Shown here piece after piece: positions 3,170 through 11,830 of a stretch of DNA of 20,084 nt. Made by a program: the position numbers and the translations under genes. This DNA is from a virus: IMG/VR virus record IMGVR_UViG_3300009071_000098, positions 1-20,084 of that record; one strand, 5' to 3'. The notes under the pieces were generated by a model, which ran no database searches, was not told the origin of the DNA, and saw only the letters and a list, made by a program, of their open reading frames with translations. Position 1 is the first letter of the stretch; the number at the start of each line of letters is the position of its first letter.

Positions 3170-3814
3170 TTACTCCTGTTCGGGCTTCTTTCGTAAGAAT
3201 ACCTGATATTTCATTAATATTACATCTACTTCTCTCACATGAGTTTCAATAAATGTATTAATGGCCATGTGAGGCCTTTCCACATCTGTATCCATATCAT
3301 CGTGAGGTTTCCACGTATAATCATCGAATATCATTAAACCGCCTGGTCTCAAAAGTTTCAGAGACATCATTGCATCTAATAAAACGTCGGGAGTACGATG
3401 AGACCCATCGATATAAATCCAATCAAAAGAACCTTCGTGTTTATCCATAAGTCCACTCATCATTCTGTGCGAGGGGCCTTTGAGTCGTACAACTGTTGGT
3501 CTTGGATTTTTGTCTTCGAGTGCGTCTACTATATTTCTACCAAATTTGTATTCGACATCGATGAAATTGACATCTTGGTGCTCTGAGCTACCTTCCCATG
3601 TATCAATGCAAAATAATTGCTGTAAAGAGGGGGCGTTATCGAGTAAGAAACAAGCAGAAGCTCCTTCATAAGAGCCTATTTCCATTGCTTTTAATGGTTT
3701 CCACTCTTGGATGAAACCGGGCCAATCGTTGTGGACATTCGAGCCCTTATACCAGCGATGGGTAAAGTCATATTTTGAATCATCATAATTGTCCACAGCT
3801 TCACCTTTCTTCAC
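3170..3814 (-). CDS. Class I SAM-dependent methyltransferase (Methyltransf_24-like)
   Basis: The 214-residue protein has a Rossmann-type methyltransferase core. AMEIGSYEGASA (43-54) is motif I, D71 in FCIDTWEGS is the likely acidic ribose ligand, and YIDGSHRTPDVLLDAMMSLK (134-153) followed by LLRPGGLMIFDDY (154-166) gives the motifs IV-VI region. The YIDGSH...GG..IFDDY pattern is that of the Methyltransf_24/cephalosporin hydroxylase-like group, often linked to sugar or natural-product methylation. The substrate is unknown. The GTG at 3814 makes a 4-base GTGA overlap with the previous gene; a GTG at 3796 behind AAAGGTGAAGCT is an equally good start and would shorten the protein by six residues. 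Confidence 0.85.
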   Translation of the reverse strand: MKKGEAVDNYDDSKYDFTHRWYKGSNVHNDWPGFIQEWKPLKAMEIGSYEGASACFLLDNAPSLQQLFCIDTWEGSSEHQDVNFIDVEYKFGRNIVDALEDKNPRPTVVRLKGPSHRMMSGLMDKHEGSFDWIYIDGSHRTPDVLLDAMMSLKLLRPGGLMIFDDYTWKPHDDMDTDVERPHMAINTFIETHVREVDVILMKYQVFLRKKPEQE

Positions 3815-5912: not shown

Positions 5913-7766
5913 ATGACACAAAAACCTGAAGAATTTCGTATCCTAACCGCGCGACAACACGTGCGAGAGCGGATTGGAATGTATATGGGGTCATCATCTA
6001 TAGAGGAGGTGGAACGATTCGTACTGGGACAATGGAAGAAGGCTACGTATGTTCCTGCCTTGTCTAAGATGGTCGATGAAATTCTAGATAACTCTATAGA
6101 CGAGGCCATACGAACTAATTTCAAGTTCGCCAATAAGATCAATGTCTCTATAAATGAAGACCAGGTCACTGTAACTGATAATGGTCGTGGGATACCCCAA
6201 GACAAGGTCTTCGATGAAACTCAGGGCAAAAATATCTTACGGCCTGTAGCTGCTTGGACTCAAGTCAATGCAGGTACCTCCTTTGATGACGAGAGGGTGA
6301 CGATCGGAACGAATGGTGTCGGATCTGCTGCTACAAACTTCCTTTCCAAGAAATTCACTGGAAAGACATGTTCTGGCAACAATCTGGTCCAAGTCAATTG
6401 TAAAGATGGTGCTGACAATGTCAAGGTCGTGGCCAAGGCTAAGTGTGGTACATCTTATACAGAGGTATCCTTTATACCAGATTTTGATCTGTTCGAGGTC
6501 GGGTCTCTGTCTGAACTAGATACTGTGGCTTTAATAGAAGATCGATTGATCAGCTTACAGATGGCTTTCCCTGAGATTGCCTTTTCCTTTAATAAGAGAA
6601 GAGTCAAAGTTGCTGACCTAAAGAAATATGCAGGCCTCTTTTCAGATACCACGGTGATCGAGAAATCAGATAATCTGGCTTTCTTCTTCGCTCCATCTGA
6701 AGATGGGTTCAGAACTAATTCATTTACCAACGGGGTGAACACTCGACAAGGTGGCACTTATGTTGATTTCATTGTAAATAATGTGGTCGATGAATTGGTC
6801 ACTATGATCAAACGTAAATATAAGATTGAAGTAGCCAAAACTACGATCAAGGGTGGATTGACCTTTGTGATGTTTGCGCGTAATTTCACCAATCCAAAAT
6901 TCGATAGTCAGACCAAAGAGCGACTGACCAATCCAATGTCGAATGTTAAAGAACATTATGAATTGGCTGATCTTAAAGATCTACAAACAATTGCTAAGAA
7001 AGTCCTAAACACACCGGATATCATTGATCCTATTATTGAGGCTCAATTGGCAAAGAAGATGGCTGCTGATGCACGTGCTGCTGCTCAGGCTCAAAAGAAA
7101 TTGAAAAAAGTCAAGGTCGCCAAACACATTGCAGCTACTGGTAAAGACACTACACTGAAGATTGTCGAGGGTGATTCTGCCATGGGCTTCTTGTTGAAGG
7201 TACGTAATGCTAAGAAGGTTGGAGCGTTTCCTTTGCGTGGTGTGATTATGAATACGTGGGATATGAAACCAGCCGATGTATTAAAGAATAAAGAACTGAG
7301 TGAGTTGATCGCCGTACTTGGGCTCAATATCAATGACCCTGATAGTGTCGATGATATGACATACAGTCGAATTGCCACACTGACAGATGCTGACCATGAT
7401 GGAATCGGACATATTGCTCCTTTATTGATTGCCTTCTTTTATAGATTCTGGCCACGGCTGTTAGAAGAGCGTCGTGTGATGATTACACGAACCCCGATTA
7501 TGATCACCGAGGGCGGGATCAAAGGTGGCATGAGGGGTGATGAAACTTGGAATACCTGGTCTTACACCTATGAAGAGGCTCATGAAAGAAAGAAACGATC
7601 AGATGGCAAACATCGATACATTAAAGGTCTTGCAAGTCTCAGACAAGAAGAGTACGATCGTATCGTTAACCAGCCTGTATATGATGTAGTCACAGTTGAT
7701 GATGCAAAATATTTTGAAATGATGTTTGGAAAAAATTCAAACCTTCGAAAGGAGTATATGGTATGA
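5913..7766 (+). CDS. 39: Phage type II DNA topoisomerase, large (ATPase/TOPRIM) subunit
   Basis: This 617-residue protein joins the parts that are split into gp39 and gp60 in T4. EILDNSIDEAI (56-66) and VTDNGRGIP (87-95) are the GHKL ATP-binding motifs, GTNGVGSAA (132-140) is the ATP lid, QTKERL (333-338) is the K-loop of the transducer domain, and VEGDSA (418-423) plus TDADHDG (491-497) are the TOPRIM Mg-binding motifs. It works with gp52 to relax DNA and supports origin-dependent replication in T4. The ribosome site before ATG 5913 is modest (GGATGTACT). The last codons overlap the medium-subunit start as ATGA. Its length is consistent with an unsplit subunit, the usual state outside T4 and its close relatives. 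Confidence 0.96.
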   Translation: MTQKPEEFRILTARQHVRERIGMYMGSSSIEEVERFVLGQWKKATYVPALSKMVDEILDNSIDEAIRTNFKFANKINVSINEDQVTVTDNGRGIPQDKVFDETQGKNILRPVAAWTQVNAGTSFDDERVTIGTNGVGSAATNFLSKKFTGKTCSGNNLVQVNCKDGADNVKVVAKAKCGTSYTEVSFIPDFDLFEVGSLSELDTVALIEDRLISLQMAFPEIAFSFNKRRVKVADLKKYAGLFSDTTVIEKSDNLAFFFAPSEDGFRTNSFTNGVNTRQGGTYVDFIVNNVVDELVTMIKRKYKIEVAKTTIKGGLTFVMFARNFTNPKFDSQTKERLTNPMSNVKEHYELADLKDLQTIAKKVLNTPDIIDPIIEAQLAKKMAADARAAAQAQKKLKKVKVAKHIAATGKDTTLKIVEGDSAMGFLLKVRNAKKVGAFPLRGVIMNTWDMKPADVLKNKELSELIAVLGLNINDPDSVDDMTYSRIATLTDADHDGIGHIAPLLIAFFYRFWPRLLEERRVMITRTPIMITEGGIKGGMRGDETWNTWSYTYEEAHERKKRSDGKHRYIKGLASLRQEEYDRIVNQPVYDVVTVDDAKYFEMMFGKNSNLRKEYMV

Positions 7767-9115
7767 CTGATTTAACAACATTCGTAAAAGATTCGGCGAA
7801 TGAATATCCGATATCGAATGTAGCCAAGAATGAATGGTTAGACTTTGCGATGTACACGGTAGAGGCTAGGGCTATTCCTAACATGATTGATGGTTTGAAA
7901 CCAGTCCAACGATTCTATCTCTATTCATCCATTAAGAATTCTAAGTCAGAATTTAAGAAGGTTTCTGCAGTTGCGGGTATCATCAGTGATTATGGTTACA
8001 ATCACGGCGAATCTTCTGCTGCAGCTGCTGGACAATTGATGGCTGCAGAATGGAATAACAATGTATGTTTGGTTGAAGGCCGAGGTTCATTCGGAACACG
8101 ACTTGTCCAAGAGGCAGGTGCTGCTCGATATGTCTACACCAGACTATCTGAAAATTTTAATAGATATATTACCGACATTGATTTGTCACTCACACACGAG
8201 GATCCTGAACATGAGCCACCTAAATTCTATGTCCCAATCATTCCTTTGGTACTTGTCAACGGACAACGCGGTATTGCTACTGGCTTTGCCCATCTTAGTC
8301 TTCCAAGAAATCCTTTAGATGTTGCACAGGCCTGTAAAGAATATGTCGCGACGGGGAAAATCACAAGCAGTTTGCCGATCACGTTTCCCCAATTTACCGG
8401 TAGGGTTGAGGCCGATCCCGATGGAAGTAAATTTACCGTCTTCGGCAATTATCGAAAAAGGACAAAGACCACGCTATCAATTACTGAGGTTCCATACGGA
8501 TACGATCGAGAGTCATATGTAAAGATTCTCGATTCACTAGAAGATGATGGTGATATTGTCAGTTATGAAGATAGATGTGACAAGGACGGATTTCGATTCG
8601 AGGTGAAATTAAAGCAGAACAGTTCTGCCAAATGGAACACGAAACAAATCTATTCTAAATTCAAGCTAACCAAGTCCTTTACAGAAAATATGACTGTGAT
8701 AGGACCTGATGGCAAATTGAAAGAATACAATACAGCTGAAGATCTAATTAAAGATTTCTGTGACTGGAGGAGTGATTTCCTTTCAAAACGAATCGAGAAA
8801 AACACCGCTGAATATGAAGCTGAAATTCGATGGTTGGAAATCAGATTGGCTTTTGTTGAAGGAGTTCGCTCTGGGCAGATTGACATAATGAGTCTAAATA
8901 AGAATGACCTGATAAAAAGTATTATGACTATTACAAAGTGTGATACAAAAGAGGTCACCAAATTAATGGCAATGCCTATATCATCGATCATGAAATCAGA
9001 GCCCGCAGTATTCAAAAGGTTCATCACTGAAGCTAAAAAGAAACTAAAGTTCTGGAAAACTACAACTACAAAAGATCAGTTTCTTGCTGACTTGGATGAA
9101 TTGAATGCAAACTGA
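7763..9115 (+). CDS. 52: Phage type II DNA topoisomerase, medium (breakage-reunion) subunit
   Basis: The 450-residue protein is close in length to T4 gp52. It is homologous to the GyrA/ParC breakage-reunion core: ARAIPNMIDGLKPVQR (35-50) opens the winged-helix domain, GYNHGESS (78-85) follows, and GAARYVYTRLS (119-129) carries the catalytic R122-Y123 pair that forms the 5'-phosphotyrosyl bond. QRGIATGF further on is the conserved tower segment. A coiled-coil region (RIEKNTAEYEAEIRWLEIRL) follows, as in gp52. The gene is coupled to the large subunit by ATGA, with AAGGAG close before the start. The final 11 bases overlap the FkbM gene. Confidence 0.95.
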   Translation: MTDLTTFVKDSANEYPISNVAKNEWLDFAMYTVEARAIPNMIDGLKPVQRFYLYSSIKNSKSEFKKVSAVAGIISDYGYNHGESSAAAAGQLMAAEWNNNVCLVEGRGSFGTRLVQEAGAARYVYTRLSENFNRYITDIDLSLTHEDPEHEPPKFYVPIIPLVLVNGQRGIATGFAHLSLPRNPLDVAQACKEYVATGKITSSLPITFPQFTGRVEADPDGSKFTVFGNYRKRTKTTLSITEVPYGYDRESYVKILDSLEDDGDIVSYEDRCDKDGFRFEVKLKQNSSAKWNTKQIYSKFKLTKSFTENMTVIGPDGKLKEYNTAEDLIKDFCDWRSDFLSKRIEKNTAEYEAEIRWLEIRLAFVEGVRSGQIDIMSLNKNDLIKSIMTITKCDTKEVTKLMAMPISSIMKSEPAVFKRFITEAKKKLKFWKTTTTKDQFLADLDELNAN

Positions 9116-9878
9116 ATATGATGGCCCAAGAAGAACCCACTTCAACCAAAGAGATAAAAACCTAAACGAGTACATTGATGCCACTGGCATTCCGATGCGG
9201 TCACTGGGAACAATGTATCATGAATTTTTCAAGCGGATGGATTATGATTGGTGGTACGAGGTACAGCCTGGTGACGTCGTAGTCGATCTAGGAGCATGTA
9301 TTGGTATGTTTACCCTTCACGCTCTAGACAAAGGTGCCAAGAAAGTATATGCTGTAGAGGGTAGTAAACAAAACATAGAAACCACTATTAAGAATCTGAG
9401 TCCTTATTGGCTGAAACATGGTCATTGTCCTGTTGTTCCTATTCATACCATGATAGGTGATAAGAAAAGATACTCTTTGAAATTGCACAATTATGTGTAT
9501 TCCGATGAAGTAAATTTGTCCATGATGTCGTTTAAAGAATTTCTGGAAAAATACAAGATCGAACACATTGATTATCTAAAAGTCGATATCGAAGGTTCTG
9601 AATATGATATCTTTACTGAAGAAAATATATTCTTTCTTCGTAATCATGTCAAACACATGTCTGTAGAATTCCATTTAAATTGTTTCAGAGAGGCACCTTG
9701 GGAATGGATGCGAGTACGAGAGTTGATTGGGACTCACTTCGACCTCAATAAAGTTCGATATATGTCTCGTGAAGATGAATATGAGTTCCATGGCAACTAT
9801 GATACTGAATTCAAAACTGGTCAGTGGCCACATAACAATATATTTTCTGGGTTTATGTTATACATCACCAATTGGTAA
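9105..9878 (+). CDS. FkbM-family SAM methyltransferase, 257 aa
   Basis: VVVDLGACIGMFT (58-70) is SAM-binding motif I, VYAVEG (81-86) the second strand with acidic E85, and DYLKVDIEGSEYDIF (156-170) the diagnostic KxDIEGxE block of FkbM methyltransferases, which O-methylate sugars and natural products. The C-terminus is HNNIFSGFMLYITNW. The substrate is unknown; phage or host-surface glycans are candidates. It starts inside gene 52 (11-base overlap) with only a weak ribosome site, so it is probably read from the topoisomerase transcript. It converges with a paralogue whose end overlaps it by 14 bases, both finishing in YITNW. Confidence 0.88.
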   Translation: MQTEYDGPRRTHFNQRDKNLNEYIDATGIPMRSLGTMYHEFFKRMDYDWWYEVQPGDVVVDLGACIGMFTLHALDKGAKKVYAVEGSKQNIETTIKNLSPYWLKHGHCPVVPIHTMIGDKKRYSLKLHNYVYSDEVNLSMMSFKEFLEKYKIEHIDYLKVDIEGSEYDIFTEENIFFLRNHVKHMSVEFHLNCFREAPWEWMRVRELIGTHFDLNKVRYMSREDEYEFHGNYDTEFKTGQWPHNNIFSGFMLYITNW

Positions 9879-10515
9879 TATACATTAATATCGTGTCACC
9901 GTGTTGGGAATGTTTCCATTCTTTGCTTCTGAGATAACTATCATTTCTGAAATACCAGCCTGGGACACCATAGCCCCAGGTTTTTGGTCCGAATATTTGG
10001 ATCTTATTTCCAAAAAGTTCGAACTCCCATCGGTTTAAAAATGCATTTCGCCAATCAATGAATTGCTCTATAGTATCGTCTGTAAGGTATATCATTAATG
10101 CTATATGCCTCACGTTCCATCGAAACCATTCCACATGTTCAGGGGTGAGGATACTATAAAAAGAGGTATCACCGGTATTGATTTTGAGAAAATCGATCTT
10201 GTCAATATTGTAATTCACTAAAAAATCTTTCCAACTTAGATCTGTTCCTAGTGCATTAGGTACAATGACTACTCTTTGATTATCTTCGCCGACATTTTTT
10301 TGAATGTTTTGAATTGCAATAGGATCTGGTTCTACAGCATAAACACAATCTGCTCCGGCATCCAACGCCTTACATGTAAATAATCCAGCAGCTGCTCCAA
10401 CATCCACCACGATATCTTCGGGCAGGATTTCTCTGAAATAAGAATAACAGTCAAGTTCGACAATGCGTCGCCAATCAGAATTATCGCTTGGCATATTAGG
10501 AGGGAAATACTTCAA
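9865..10515 (-). CDS. FkbM-like methyltransferase paralogue, motif degenerate, 216 aa
   Basis: IVVDVGAAAGLFT (35-47) is a good SAM motif I, and VYAVEPDPIAIQN (58-70) is a normal second strand. The FkbM signature is altered: FLKINTGDTSFYSIL (109-123) replaces the expected KxDxEGxE, losing the conserved acidic residues. Either catalysis differs or the protein is now a non-methylating binding fold. The C-terminus (LMYITNW) matches the converging neighbour. The start is TTG at 10515 behind ATGGAGCAGCA; the next in-frame ATG, eight codons in, has no ribosome site. A GATAAATA late-like element lies about 60 bases upstream. This is the only leftward gene between 5840 and 20084. Confidence 0.78.
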   Translation of the reverse strand: MKYFPPNMPSDNSDWRRIVELDCYSYFREILPEDIVVDVGAAAGLFTCKALDAGADCVYAVEPDPIAIQNIQKNVGEDNQRVVIVPNALGTDLSWKDFLVNYNIDKIDFLKINTGDTSFYSILTPEHVEWFRWNVRHIALMIYLTDDTIEQFIDWRNAFLNRWEFELFGNKIQIFGPKTWGYGVPGWYFRNDSYLRSKEWKHSQHGDTILMYITNW

Positions 10516-10526
10516 TGCTGCTCCAT

Positions 10527-10534
10527 CATAAATA
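10527..10534 (+). promoter_or_regulatory. Possible late promoter before tail-tube-like gene
   Basis: CATAAATA matches seven of eight bases of the T4 late element TATAAATA and lies 28 bases before the tail-tube-like ATG, a typical distance. A virion gene is expected to be late. The match is short, so chance cannot be excluded. Confidence 0.45.
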
Positions 10535-10562
10535 AGACATAAAGACTATTAGGTAATACCCA

Positions 10563-11051
10563 ATGATCACTAACTATTTATCTCCTGCTGGGTTCGATCT
10601 TTCTATTGACTTGCTACCCACCACTGAATTTTTCTGTCAAAGTATTTCTATACCTGAAATTGCTGGTACACCACCTGGGCTTGGCAGTCCGTTGCGGCAA
10701 ATGTATAACCTACCGGATAGCTTGTTATACGGTGATTTGTCAATCGATTTTGTCGTAGACGAAAACATGAAGAACTATGTCGAATGCCTGACTTGGTTAG
10801 AGGCAATCGGTGCACCAAAATCTAGTGATCAATATAAGAATTGGAAAGAAACTGTCGGCAGATTTACGACCGATATTACCATTATCATCCAAAATAGCAA
10901 AAAGAATCCGAATGTCAAATTCACTTTTTTTGATGCTTTCCCTACAGGGATTAGTGGGCTTGATATGACTGTTACTGGTTCTGATGTCCCCCCTGTCCTC
11001 TGTACATTAAGTCTACGCTATGAATCCTTTGAAGTTTCGGACATTGAATGA
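10563..11051 (+). CDS. Tail tube-like protein (T4 gp19/gp54 fold), 162 aa
   Basis: The layout follows the T4 tail-tube fold: FFCQSISIPEI near residue 23, a proline/glycine loop, YGDLSIDFVVDENMKNYVEC in the centre, a helix with WLEAIG, then ITIIIQNSKKNPNVKFTFFD, AFPTGISGLDMTVTGSD and a final LCTLSLRYESFEV strand. T4 gp19 has the same length (163) and the same succession of FxC, DExx...W, FPT and F.VTL.Y elements. It could be the main tube subunit, the tube initiator-like protein or a baseplate paralogue; it is not next to a sheath gene, so the exact role is open. AGGTAATACCCA precedes the ATG. The stop overlaps the sulfotransferase start as ATGA. Confidence 0.72.
   Translation: MITNYLSPAGFDLSIDLLPTTEFFCQSISIPEIAGTPPGLGSPLRQMYNLPDSLLYGDLSIDFVVDENMKNYVECLTWLEAIGAPKSSDQYKNWKETVGRFTTDITIIIQNSKKNPNVKFTFFDAFPTGISGLDMTVTGSDVPPVLCTLSLRYESFEVSDIE
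10575..10582 (-). promoter_or_regulatory. Possible leftward late promoter
   Basis: The leftward strand reads GATAAATA, seven of eight to the late element, 60 bases upstream of the TTG start of the degenerate FkbM paralogue. It lies within the first codons of the tail-tube-like gene. It would give that solitary leftward gene a promoter, but support is only the short match and position. Confidence 0.28.
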
Positions 11052-11830
11052 TCGTATCGAAAGACGCATATTATATTGATGTACCAAAAACCGGCTCCAC
11101 TTTCATTGTAAAAAATCTTTCGAGGATTTGTACCGGATGGTCTGTGTCTGGATTCCAGAATATAACTGGTTCCATCCATGACGATAGGCACGGCAGACTC
11201 CTTAACTACAATAAAGAAGAATTTAAAGATAGGGTGATATTTTCTTCCCTTAGAGACCCAGTATCAATTTACATCTCAACATGGGCCAATGAAGAAATTG
11301 TGGGTCCACACAAAATTAATTTCAGAGCAAATCACCCTGATTATAAAGATCATGTGTGGGAGTTTTGTAGAAGAGCAGTCAATTGGTTTCCATGCGGAAC
11401 TCCATTGACTGCACAAGAAAATCCTAGACATATTAACAGACCATATCGGTTAGGAATGGTCACGTTTCGATATCTTGATTGGGTAGATGATAGCTTCTTT
11501 ACAAAGAAAAGAACTTGGGAGGAGGTCGAGGAGTGGTACGATACTCATTATTTTGACCCATCTGTCCCAGTACACTTTTTAGGCCCTCGAAATCTCGGTG
11601 CTGATTTTGTTAATCTCATACGCGACAATAGAGAAAAATTCTCTTTCCGTGATGATGTCGACATTGAGGCTGAATTGAACCTAATCGAACAAAACGAATA
11701 TATGAACGTCAGATATTCTTCAGATCAACAACAGCGTATAATCGATAATATGGTTGCCCATGACCCATCGATCATTGACGATCTAAAAGAGGCTGAACGT
11801 ATCCTCTATTCTAGGATTGACTTTTCTTAA
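11048..11830 (+). CDS. Sulfotransferase family protein, 260 aa
   Basis: YIDVPKTGSTFIVKNL (9-24) is the 5'-phosphosulfate-binding loop of PAPS-dependent sulfotransferases (K14, T15, S17, T18), and VIFSSLRDPVSIYISTWANE (63-82) is the 3'-phosphate-binding segment with R69 and S73. The remainder is aromatic-rich and less conserved, as in Golgi-type and bacterial carbohydrate sulfotransferases. The reaction would move sulfate from PAPS to a sugar or tyrosine hydroxyl; the acceptor is unknown. It is coupled to the tail-tube-like gene by ATGA and so is probably made late, which would suit modification of virion or cell-surface glycan. The uvsY promoter lies across its last codons. No signal peptide is visible, so it should be cytoplasmic. 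Confidence 0.85.
   Translation: MIVSKDAYYIDVPKTGSTFIVKNLSRICTGWSVSGFQNITGSIHDDRHGRLLNYNKEEFKDRVIFSSLRDPVSIYISTWANEEIVGPHKINFRANHPDYKDHVWEFCRRAVNWFPCGTPLTAQENPRHINRPYRLGMVTFRYLDWVDDSFFTKKRTWEEVEEWYDTHYFDPSVPVHFLGPRNLGADFVNLIRDNREKFSFRDDVDIEAELNLIEQNEYMNVRYSSDQQQRIIDNMVAHDPSIIDDLKEAERILYSRIDFS

Follow-up and report, generated by a model that had tools for sequence, protein, structure and literature searches.

Two methyltransferase-like genes, which we call P and M, meet tail to tail in the stretch of viral DNA analysed here (the window, whose 20,084 bases make up an entire virus record and probably represent a fragment). P (9105-9878, + strand) encodes an FkbM-family methyltransferase of 257 amino acids that ends in GFMLYITNW with the stop TAA, and M (9865-10515, − strand) encodes a diverged FkbM-like paralogue of 216 amino acids, counted from a TTG start, that ends in TILMYITNW with the stop TGA. 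Upstream of P lies the small subunit of topoisomerase II (7763-9115, + strand; PF00521 and phrog_551), and M is divergent from its other neighbour, a gp19-like tail tube gene (10563-11051, + strand; phrog_45, E 2e-25). The 3' ends of P and M share 14 bases (9865-9878), in which codon positions of the two strands pair 1:1, 2:3 and 3:2, and a repeat search finds inside this overlap a perfect palindrome, ACCAATTGGT (9867-9876), that reads T-N-W on each strand. A preliminary description of this DNA had reported the facing genes, the 14-base overlap, the position of the palindrome, the common ending YITNW and the two different stops, and the open reading frames and sequence confirm all of these.

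The tails can be read codon by codon. P ends in TAC ATC ACC AAT TGG TAA (9861-9878) and M, on the opposite strand, in TAT ATT ACC AAT TGG TGA (9865-9882). The TAA of P is the antisense of two bases of M's Ile codon ATT (9877-9879) together with the first base of M's Thr codon ACC, and the TGA of M is likewise the antisense of two bases of P's Ile codon ATC (9864-9866) and the first base of P's ACC. Around the perfect palindrome lies a wider, imperfect one (arms 9861-9875 and 9868-9882, 87% complementary) whose mismatches sit at the wobble bases of TAC/TAT and ATC/ATT, so that both strands read Y-I-T-N-W-stop. ACCAATTGGT occurs once in the window, where dinucleotide shuffles expect 0.04 copies. 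The junction is not an assembly accident, since it is identical in a second record (L001) whose P and M proteins are 97-98% identical to those of the window, and it recurs in divergent phages. Between the P genes of the window (9105-9878) and L001 (3823-4596), nine bases and eight residues differ, with no synonymous difference. The frame of M stays open upstream of the TTG to 10545; read by eye, this extension (10515-10545, − strand) would give ...IYDGAALKYFPPN, which recalls the N-terminal EYDG of P.

A family search of the window identifies both topoisomerase II subunits, the tail tube protein gp19 and UvsY, and a DNA polymerase is identified by similarity (its best-ranked counterpart in named phages shares 44% identity, and identity stays below 60% in all 2,594 matching records). 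Judged by these genes, the source of the window is an uncultured T4-like phage. Other genes of this kind would be UvsW, gp55 and gp46/47.

P and M as FkbM-type paralogues

Aligned with each other, P and M are identical at 67 of 228 positions (29%; BLASTP, E 2e-22), and their homology runs from about residue 47 of P through to its end. The likeness extends beyond a shared methyltransferase fold, and for this reason the paralogy proposed in the preliminary description stands. P passes the cut-offs of both FkbM family models (PF05050, 51.8 bits against 22.7; TIGR01444, 50.8 bits against 37.7); M has no PF05050 match at E 0.001 and reaches 36.9 bits against the TIGR01444 cut-off of 37.7. In a structural model of P (pLDDT 86.6), which a Foldseek search matches best to class I SAM methyltransferases, the final strand is 249-255, GFMLYIT. 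The model of M (pLDDT 82.7) has a similar order of strands and helices and closes with the strand 208-214, TILMYIT, so that in both models the last strand is the FM-YIT or LM-YIT stretch.

Within the FkbM family, P belongs to a phage subfamily that ends in FM-YITN. Its matches among cellular FkbM proteins are distant: the best 80 of 192 are only 21-38% identical, over part of the protein. In a collection of named phages, Synechococcus phage DSL-LC02 gives the sole match to P at E 1e-5 (31% identity), and it alone matched P, M and one singleton FkbM protein. As an FkbM protein, P is probably a sugar- or glycan-type O-methyltransferase.

The overlap in related phages

How widely is this arrangement found? 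A degenerate pattern for tail-to-tail YITNW endings recovers one near-identical and one divergent phage. Profile searches, in which we kept the best 80 of 228 and the best 80 of 312 viral relatives (records that are mostly fragments), bring the number to at least 54 convergent pairs including the window, with 26 distinct junction sequences, and then to 8 more contigs. In total, the tail-to-tail overlap is present in at least 62 contig records, tallied by contig name, with 31 distinct combinations of the last 33 nucleotides, and this breadth argues that it is old and maintained. The preliminary description had suggested comparing the junction in relatives, and the overlap indeed proves common to many, from L001 to divergent phages. 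The genes of such a pair lie on opposite strands with overlapping 3' ends, and the omega values given below show that both reading frames are maintained; the overlap is 14 or 11 bases long in all junctions listed. The surroundings are stable as well: M is the gene on the gp19 side in 54 of 54 convergent pairs, and the topoisomerase genes lie on P's side wherever the contig reaches, with the exception of one subgroup (L009-L020). Among titles and abstract openings in the literature, we found no description of this arrangement.

The perfect 10-bp palindrome is much rarer than the overlap. It appears only where both genes end in Trp (NW/NW), in 4 of the 31 junctions (the window, L001, L008 and L155); in 21 of 23 junction segments (all but those of L001/window and L008) the longest perfect palindrome is 2-6 bp, and the overlap persists. 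What recurs is the protein motif. Both genes stop at, or one residue after, a YITN/YISN-type motif in 29 of 31 junctions, the other two being L021 and L024, where P runs nine residues past YITN. The same motif stands within the last ~12 residues of free-standing relatives, and tandem or single FkbM genes that have no converging partner carry it too, with ends such as YITRI, YITNREM, YIKNG, YLING and YLTKK.

A coding rule at the overlap

The codon phase is identical in all 31 distinct junctions, and in 29 of them the self-complementary core AATT is common to both Asn codons (at that position the run-on P of L021 and L024 reads AGT TTG). In this phase the antisense of I-T-N (ATY ACC AAT) is N-W-stop, which means that the Thr and Ile codons of each partner write the last residue and the stop of the other. 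More generally, the last codon of P consists of T followed by the complement of the third and then of the second base of M's pre-Asn codon, and vice versa, and this rule explains how the genes end in each of the 31 distinct junctions. When M has a Thr codon at this site, P ends in Trp (ACC), a stop (ACT), Ser (ACG) or Leu (ACA); Lys AAG and Arg AGG in M give P the Ser codons TCT and TCC; in the other direction, Thr ACC in P gives M Trp and Ser AGT gives M Tyr. The remaining stops are the antisense of the end of the partner's Ile or Val codon, except in L021 and L024, where M's TAG derives from a Pro codon. Given the phase, the rule is a consequence of the genetic code; what is new is the constancy of the phase and the meeting of two conserved motifs within it.

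Codon usage at the junction is strongly biased. P uses ACC in 27 of 27 junctions with Thr at this site (25 in YITN or YVTN and 2, those of L021 and L024, in run-on tails) and has Ser AGT in the other 4. In the rest of the stop-to-stop frames, taken over 18 P and 21 M rows, 45 of 355 Thr codons (13%) are ACC, and of 17 free-standing rows the 10 with Thr at the site have ACC in none (two of the ten being near-identical). The 18 P rows fall into 13 clusters at a fourfold difference of at least 40%, 12 of them with Thr. This codon lock could in part be inheritance, although fourfold sites elsewhere in P differ by 61% on average. The M codon at the mirror site takes six forms. The last residue of M is aromatic in 33 of 33 rows (W 28, Y 5), that of P, over 23 rows, is W in 2, N in 5, S in 12, L in 2, D in 1 and E in 1, and other relatives have an aromatic residue there in 4 of 28 rows. 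With M always aromatic, the P codon fixed and the P residue varied, selection seems to act on the end of M, and the last residue of P seems to follow passively. On these alignments the constraint is one-sided: M keeps its aromatic residue and P its ACC (or AGT), and the M codon and the last residue of P vary together. The idea that protein conservation holds the shared end, also put forward in the preliminary description, is supported by the family-wide FM-YITN-like endings as well as by the invariant aromatic residue of M. A change that is synonymous in one gene can alter the terminal residue of the partner protein, and P seems to be held to a rare codon by the conserved aromatic end of M.

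Genes without a converging partner

The preliminary description had asked whether YITNW endings also occur without a converging FkbM partner. They do for M: with no P adjoining, M ends in NW or NY in L104, L121, L126, L128, L135, L138, L139, L147, L148 and L151-L153 (L139, L151-L153 and L128 being judged from identical downstream sequence or from the locus listing alone; L120 and L146 end too soon to show the presence or absence of P). Because the records are mostly fragments, the lack of P beside M does not show a phage without P elsewhere. These genes weaken the idea of a tryptophan created purely by the overlap; M's Trp need not be a product of the overlap and may predate it. Other arrangements also exist: in L167, P and M are ~300 bases apart, P ending in YITND and M keeping YIKNW, and in L178, L180 and L182 a P-like gene that ends in YLSSE adjoins gp19 with no M (only L178 of these entered the tree). 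In the 84-row tree described below, the M genes without P beside them and the lone P of L178 nest within the groups of M and P, a placement suggesting that the partner was lost secondarily.

At the loci without P, M has a different neighbour 0-2 bases away, in some cases the gene of a small membrane protein. If P had been deleted through its NW-stop tail acting as a repeat with that of the small membrane gene, an in-phase overlap would be expected, whereas the stops abut or lie within 2 bases; such a deletion is no more than a candidate explanation. The small membrane gene has a conserved C-terminus that is mostly HNW (also RHW, HHW and HSW) and mostly lies between topoS and P, or adjoins M where P is absent (L185 is placed otherwise). 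Examples are L138 1796-1957, L148 4603-4761, L104 7558-7752 and L167 5629-5841, all on the − strand, and an HMM for the gene gave 49 matches in the loci examined, at least 22 of them distinct. Beside M, its W-stop meets stop-W, and longer palindromes result, e.g. ATTGGTAATTACCAAT in L138.

Motif loss and selection in M

The DxEGxE and ExH motifs were read off an alignment of 84 rows (33 M, 23 P and 28 other relatives). The SAM-binding glycines and aspartate are kept in all 84 rows, M included. The acidic residues are not: the DxEGxE glutamate is kept in 10 of 33 M rows and the ExH glutamate in 7 of 33, each against 23 of 23 in P and 28 of 28 in the other relatives. Both glutamates together remain in 7 of 33 M rows (P 23/23, others 28/28), and the M of the window has neither.

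In the 11 of 21 pairs with an M dS of at least 0.45, omega for M is 0.06-0.33 by simple Nei-Gojobori counts, in which some sites are near saturation; 5 of these 11 pairs lack the EG glutamate, and at the same threshold omega is below 1 in 11 of 11 pairs for M and in 10 of 10 for P where defined. For the M of the window there is one comparison, with an omega of 0.34 and too few changes to show selection. By these counts M genes evolve under purifying selection in spite of the lost residues. We read M as a selected, probably catalytically impaired relative of P, the missing glutamates being presumed catalytic. This points to an apparently inactive methyltransferase paralogue family kept by these phages. 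Active/inactive methyltransferase pairs such as METTL3-METTL14 are a parallel: in pairs of that type one paralogue keeps, and the other mostly loses, conserved acidic motif residues under selection, as for P and M here. METTL3-METTL14-type pairs form a complex, whereas P and M are known from sequences and single-chain models and the residues lost are only putatively catalytic.

Interpretation of the overlap

The reading that we favour, and consider likely, is that of an old, maintained convergent overlap of two diverged FkbM-type paralogues in an uncultured T4-like phage lineage, with the palindrome as a by-product. Both genes carry the family's C-terminal strand motif FM-YITN at their ends. 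P and M would already have been distinct subfamilies when brought tail to tail, and the join would have formed once, at the motif itself; the single phase in all 31 junctions points to such a single join. The palindrome would then arise merely where both tails are ITNW, and a short, fixed junction may permit exchange of either gene with the other left intact.

A stronger version, which we regard as speculative and rather improbable, makes the seam of 11-14 bases a standing exchange joint between an enzyme P and an inactive partner M, the joint upkeep of which selects the seam. Two phage pairs bear on it, with a change of divergence within ~100 bases of the junction, at a resolution of ~100 bases. 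In L057 versus L059, pS is 0.44 in P and 0.05 in M; L057/L058 versus L059 are 86-100% identical upstream of P, 60-82% in P and 93-100% in M. The last ~45 bases of P are nearly alike in this comparison, which places the break near, not exactly at, the overlap, and the gp19 region after M has diverged too (61-77%) before identity returns, so that L057/L059 are mosaic at more than one gene and not at P alone. The second pair, L042 versus L048, is reversed (pS 0.29 in P and 0.57 in M), with M at 68-87% between P at 89-96% and flanks at 77-99%. Six other pairs profiled have no such clear contrast, or a milder one, and two cases of unequal P/M divergence do not make a rule. If the exchange-joint reading is true, recombination could replace either methyltransferase without damage to the other.

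The preliminary description had instead proposed that an inverted (mirror) duplication of one FkbM gene made P and M and left the palindrome as its scar. Paralogues in mirror orientation with their terminal 14 bases in common are what such an event would produce, and duplicates would be each other's closest relatives. The trees place them otherwise. A 58-row tree groups the P genes in one clade (95/90) and the M genes in another (91/87), and an AU test rejects P and M together as one clade (p 0.0055; 0.0066 after addition of the M of L104 and of a partial P). AU values of 2e-8 for P+M without the nested L104, and of 7e-7 for P alone and 6e-54 for P with all M, both without the nested L178, look stronger than they are, and our argument uses the p values of 0.0055 and 0.0066. 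In an 84-row tree the sister group of P (98/87; union 100/99) consists of 8 other FkbM rows: 4 have their gene between gp46 and DNA polymerase, 2 have it immediately before the polymerase gene, and 2 have it elsewhere. Support for the M clade is weak here (82/44), and the M of the window sits on a very long branch of ~2 changes per column. None of these trees is rooted, and our naming of the groups followed a look at a first, quick tree. A DNA inverted repeat extending from the junction was not found: the arms of the region's inverted repeats measure just 12-15 nt, and at the junction itself 15 nt. Of the 31 junctions, 27 lack the perfect palindrome. This phylogeny rejects a recent inverted duplication; a very ancient one, before the free-standing relatives split off, would be compatible with the unrooted trees, and we judge the proposal as a whole quite unlikely. 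The preliminary description thus holds in the paralogy and in the shared end kept by conservation; its inverted duplication with a palindrome scar finds no support.

Equally doubtful, in our estimate, is an ordinary overlap by stop-codon loss with a coincidentally shared ending. In a published analysis (PMC2174442), stop-codon loss fits the convergent overlaps of E. coli, and the phase 123:132 is the commonest for convergent overlaps shorter than ~50 bp. The P genes of L021 and L024 do extend nine residues beyond YITN. Stop loss would add residues beyond the motif, however, and 29 of 31 junctions stop at or one residue after the motif that ends the modelled fold; the single phase in all 31 again points to one join at the motif.

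Least probable of all, and very unlikely, is that the palindrome is a functional DNA element (a protein site, a bidirectional terminator or a recombination site) whose coding match is secondary: other palindromes stand at M's 3' end where P is absent and divergence shifts near the junction in the two phage pairs above, but the sequence is not kept (the 2-6 bp palindromes of 21/23 junction segments), it has no loop or T-run, and terminator-like matches lie nearby at 9959-10003. Among the junctions compared, none conserves the palindrome where one tail has changed, and neither the junction palindromes nor a terminator search supports a functional palindrome or terminator.

With the maintained overlap of two diverged paralogues as our preferred reading, P/M is a striking variant of convergent gene overlap with conserved, mutually coding gene ends. 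The convergent pairs described in PMC2174442 likewise have a short overlap of opposite 3' ends in the commonest phase 123:132; what sets P/M apart is that the two genes belong to one family, that their overlap codes in each for the same conserved terminal strand, and that each gene supplies its partner's stop. P/M is a clean natural example of genes that each encode the final residue and the stop of the other. Its 31 distinct junctions make a comparative system for selection on overlapping genes, in which phages with one of the two genes at the site are natural controls.

Further observations on the locus

The FkbM-topoL-topoS block is inverted relative to gp19 between phage groups (L104, L105, L106, L108). 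One singleton group, with gp19- FkbM+ topoL+ topoS+, had suggested that the junction arose when the topoisomerase block was inverted. We reject this origin, since the block of convergent phages is oriented as it is in G027 and G028 and is inverted in the other singleton group; part of this comparison used 40 loci chosen from those found up to then. A further FkbM gene, in P's sister group, lies between gp46 and DNA polymerase in L105 (12801-13523), L142 (3890-4681), L145 (3884-4645) and L163 (3887-4651). Upstream of gp19 stand CATAAATA (window 10527-10534) and TATAAATA (L008 2631-2638), which resemble the T4 late promoter motif. The window also holds other modification-type genes (a 2OG-Fe(II) oxygenase, a Methyltransf_24 protein and a sulfotransferase-like protein, at 887-1495, 3170-3814 and 11048-11830) and five tRNA genes at 1524-2580 (− strand; Trp, Glu, Tyr, Asn, Thr), four of which match the tail letters Y, T, N and W, probably by chance.
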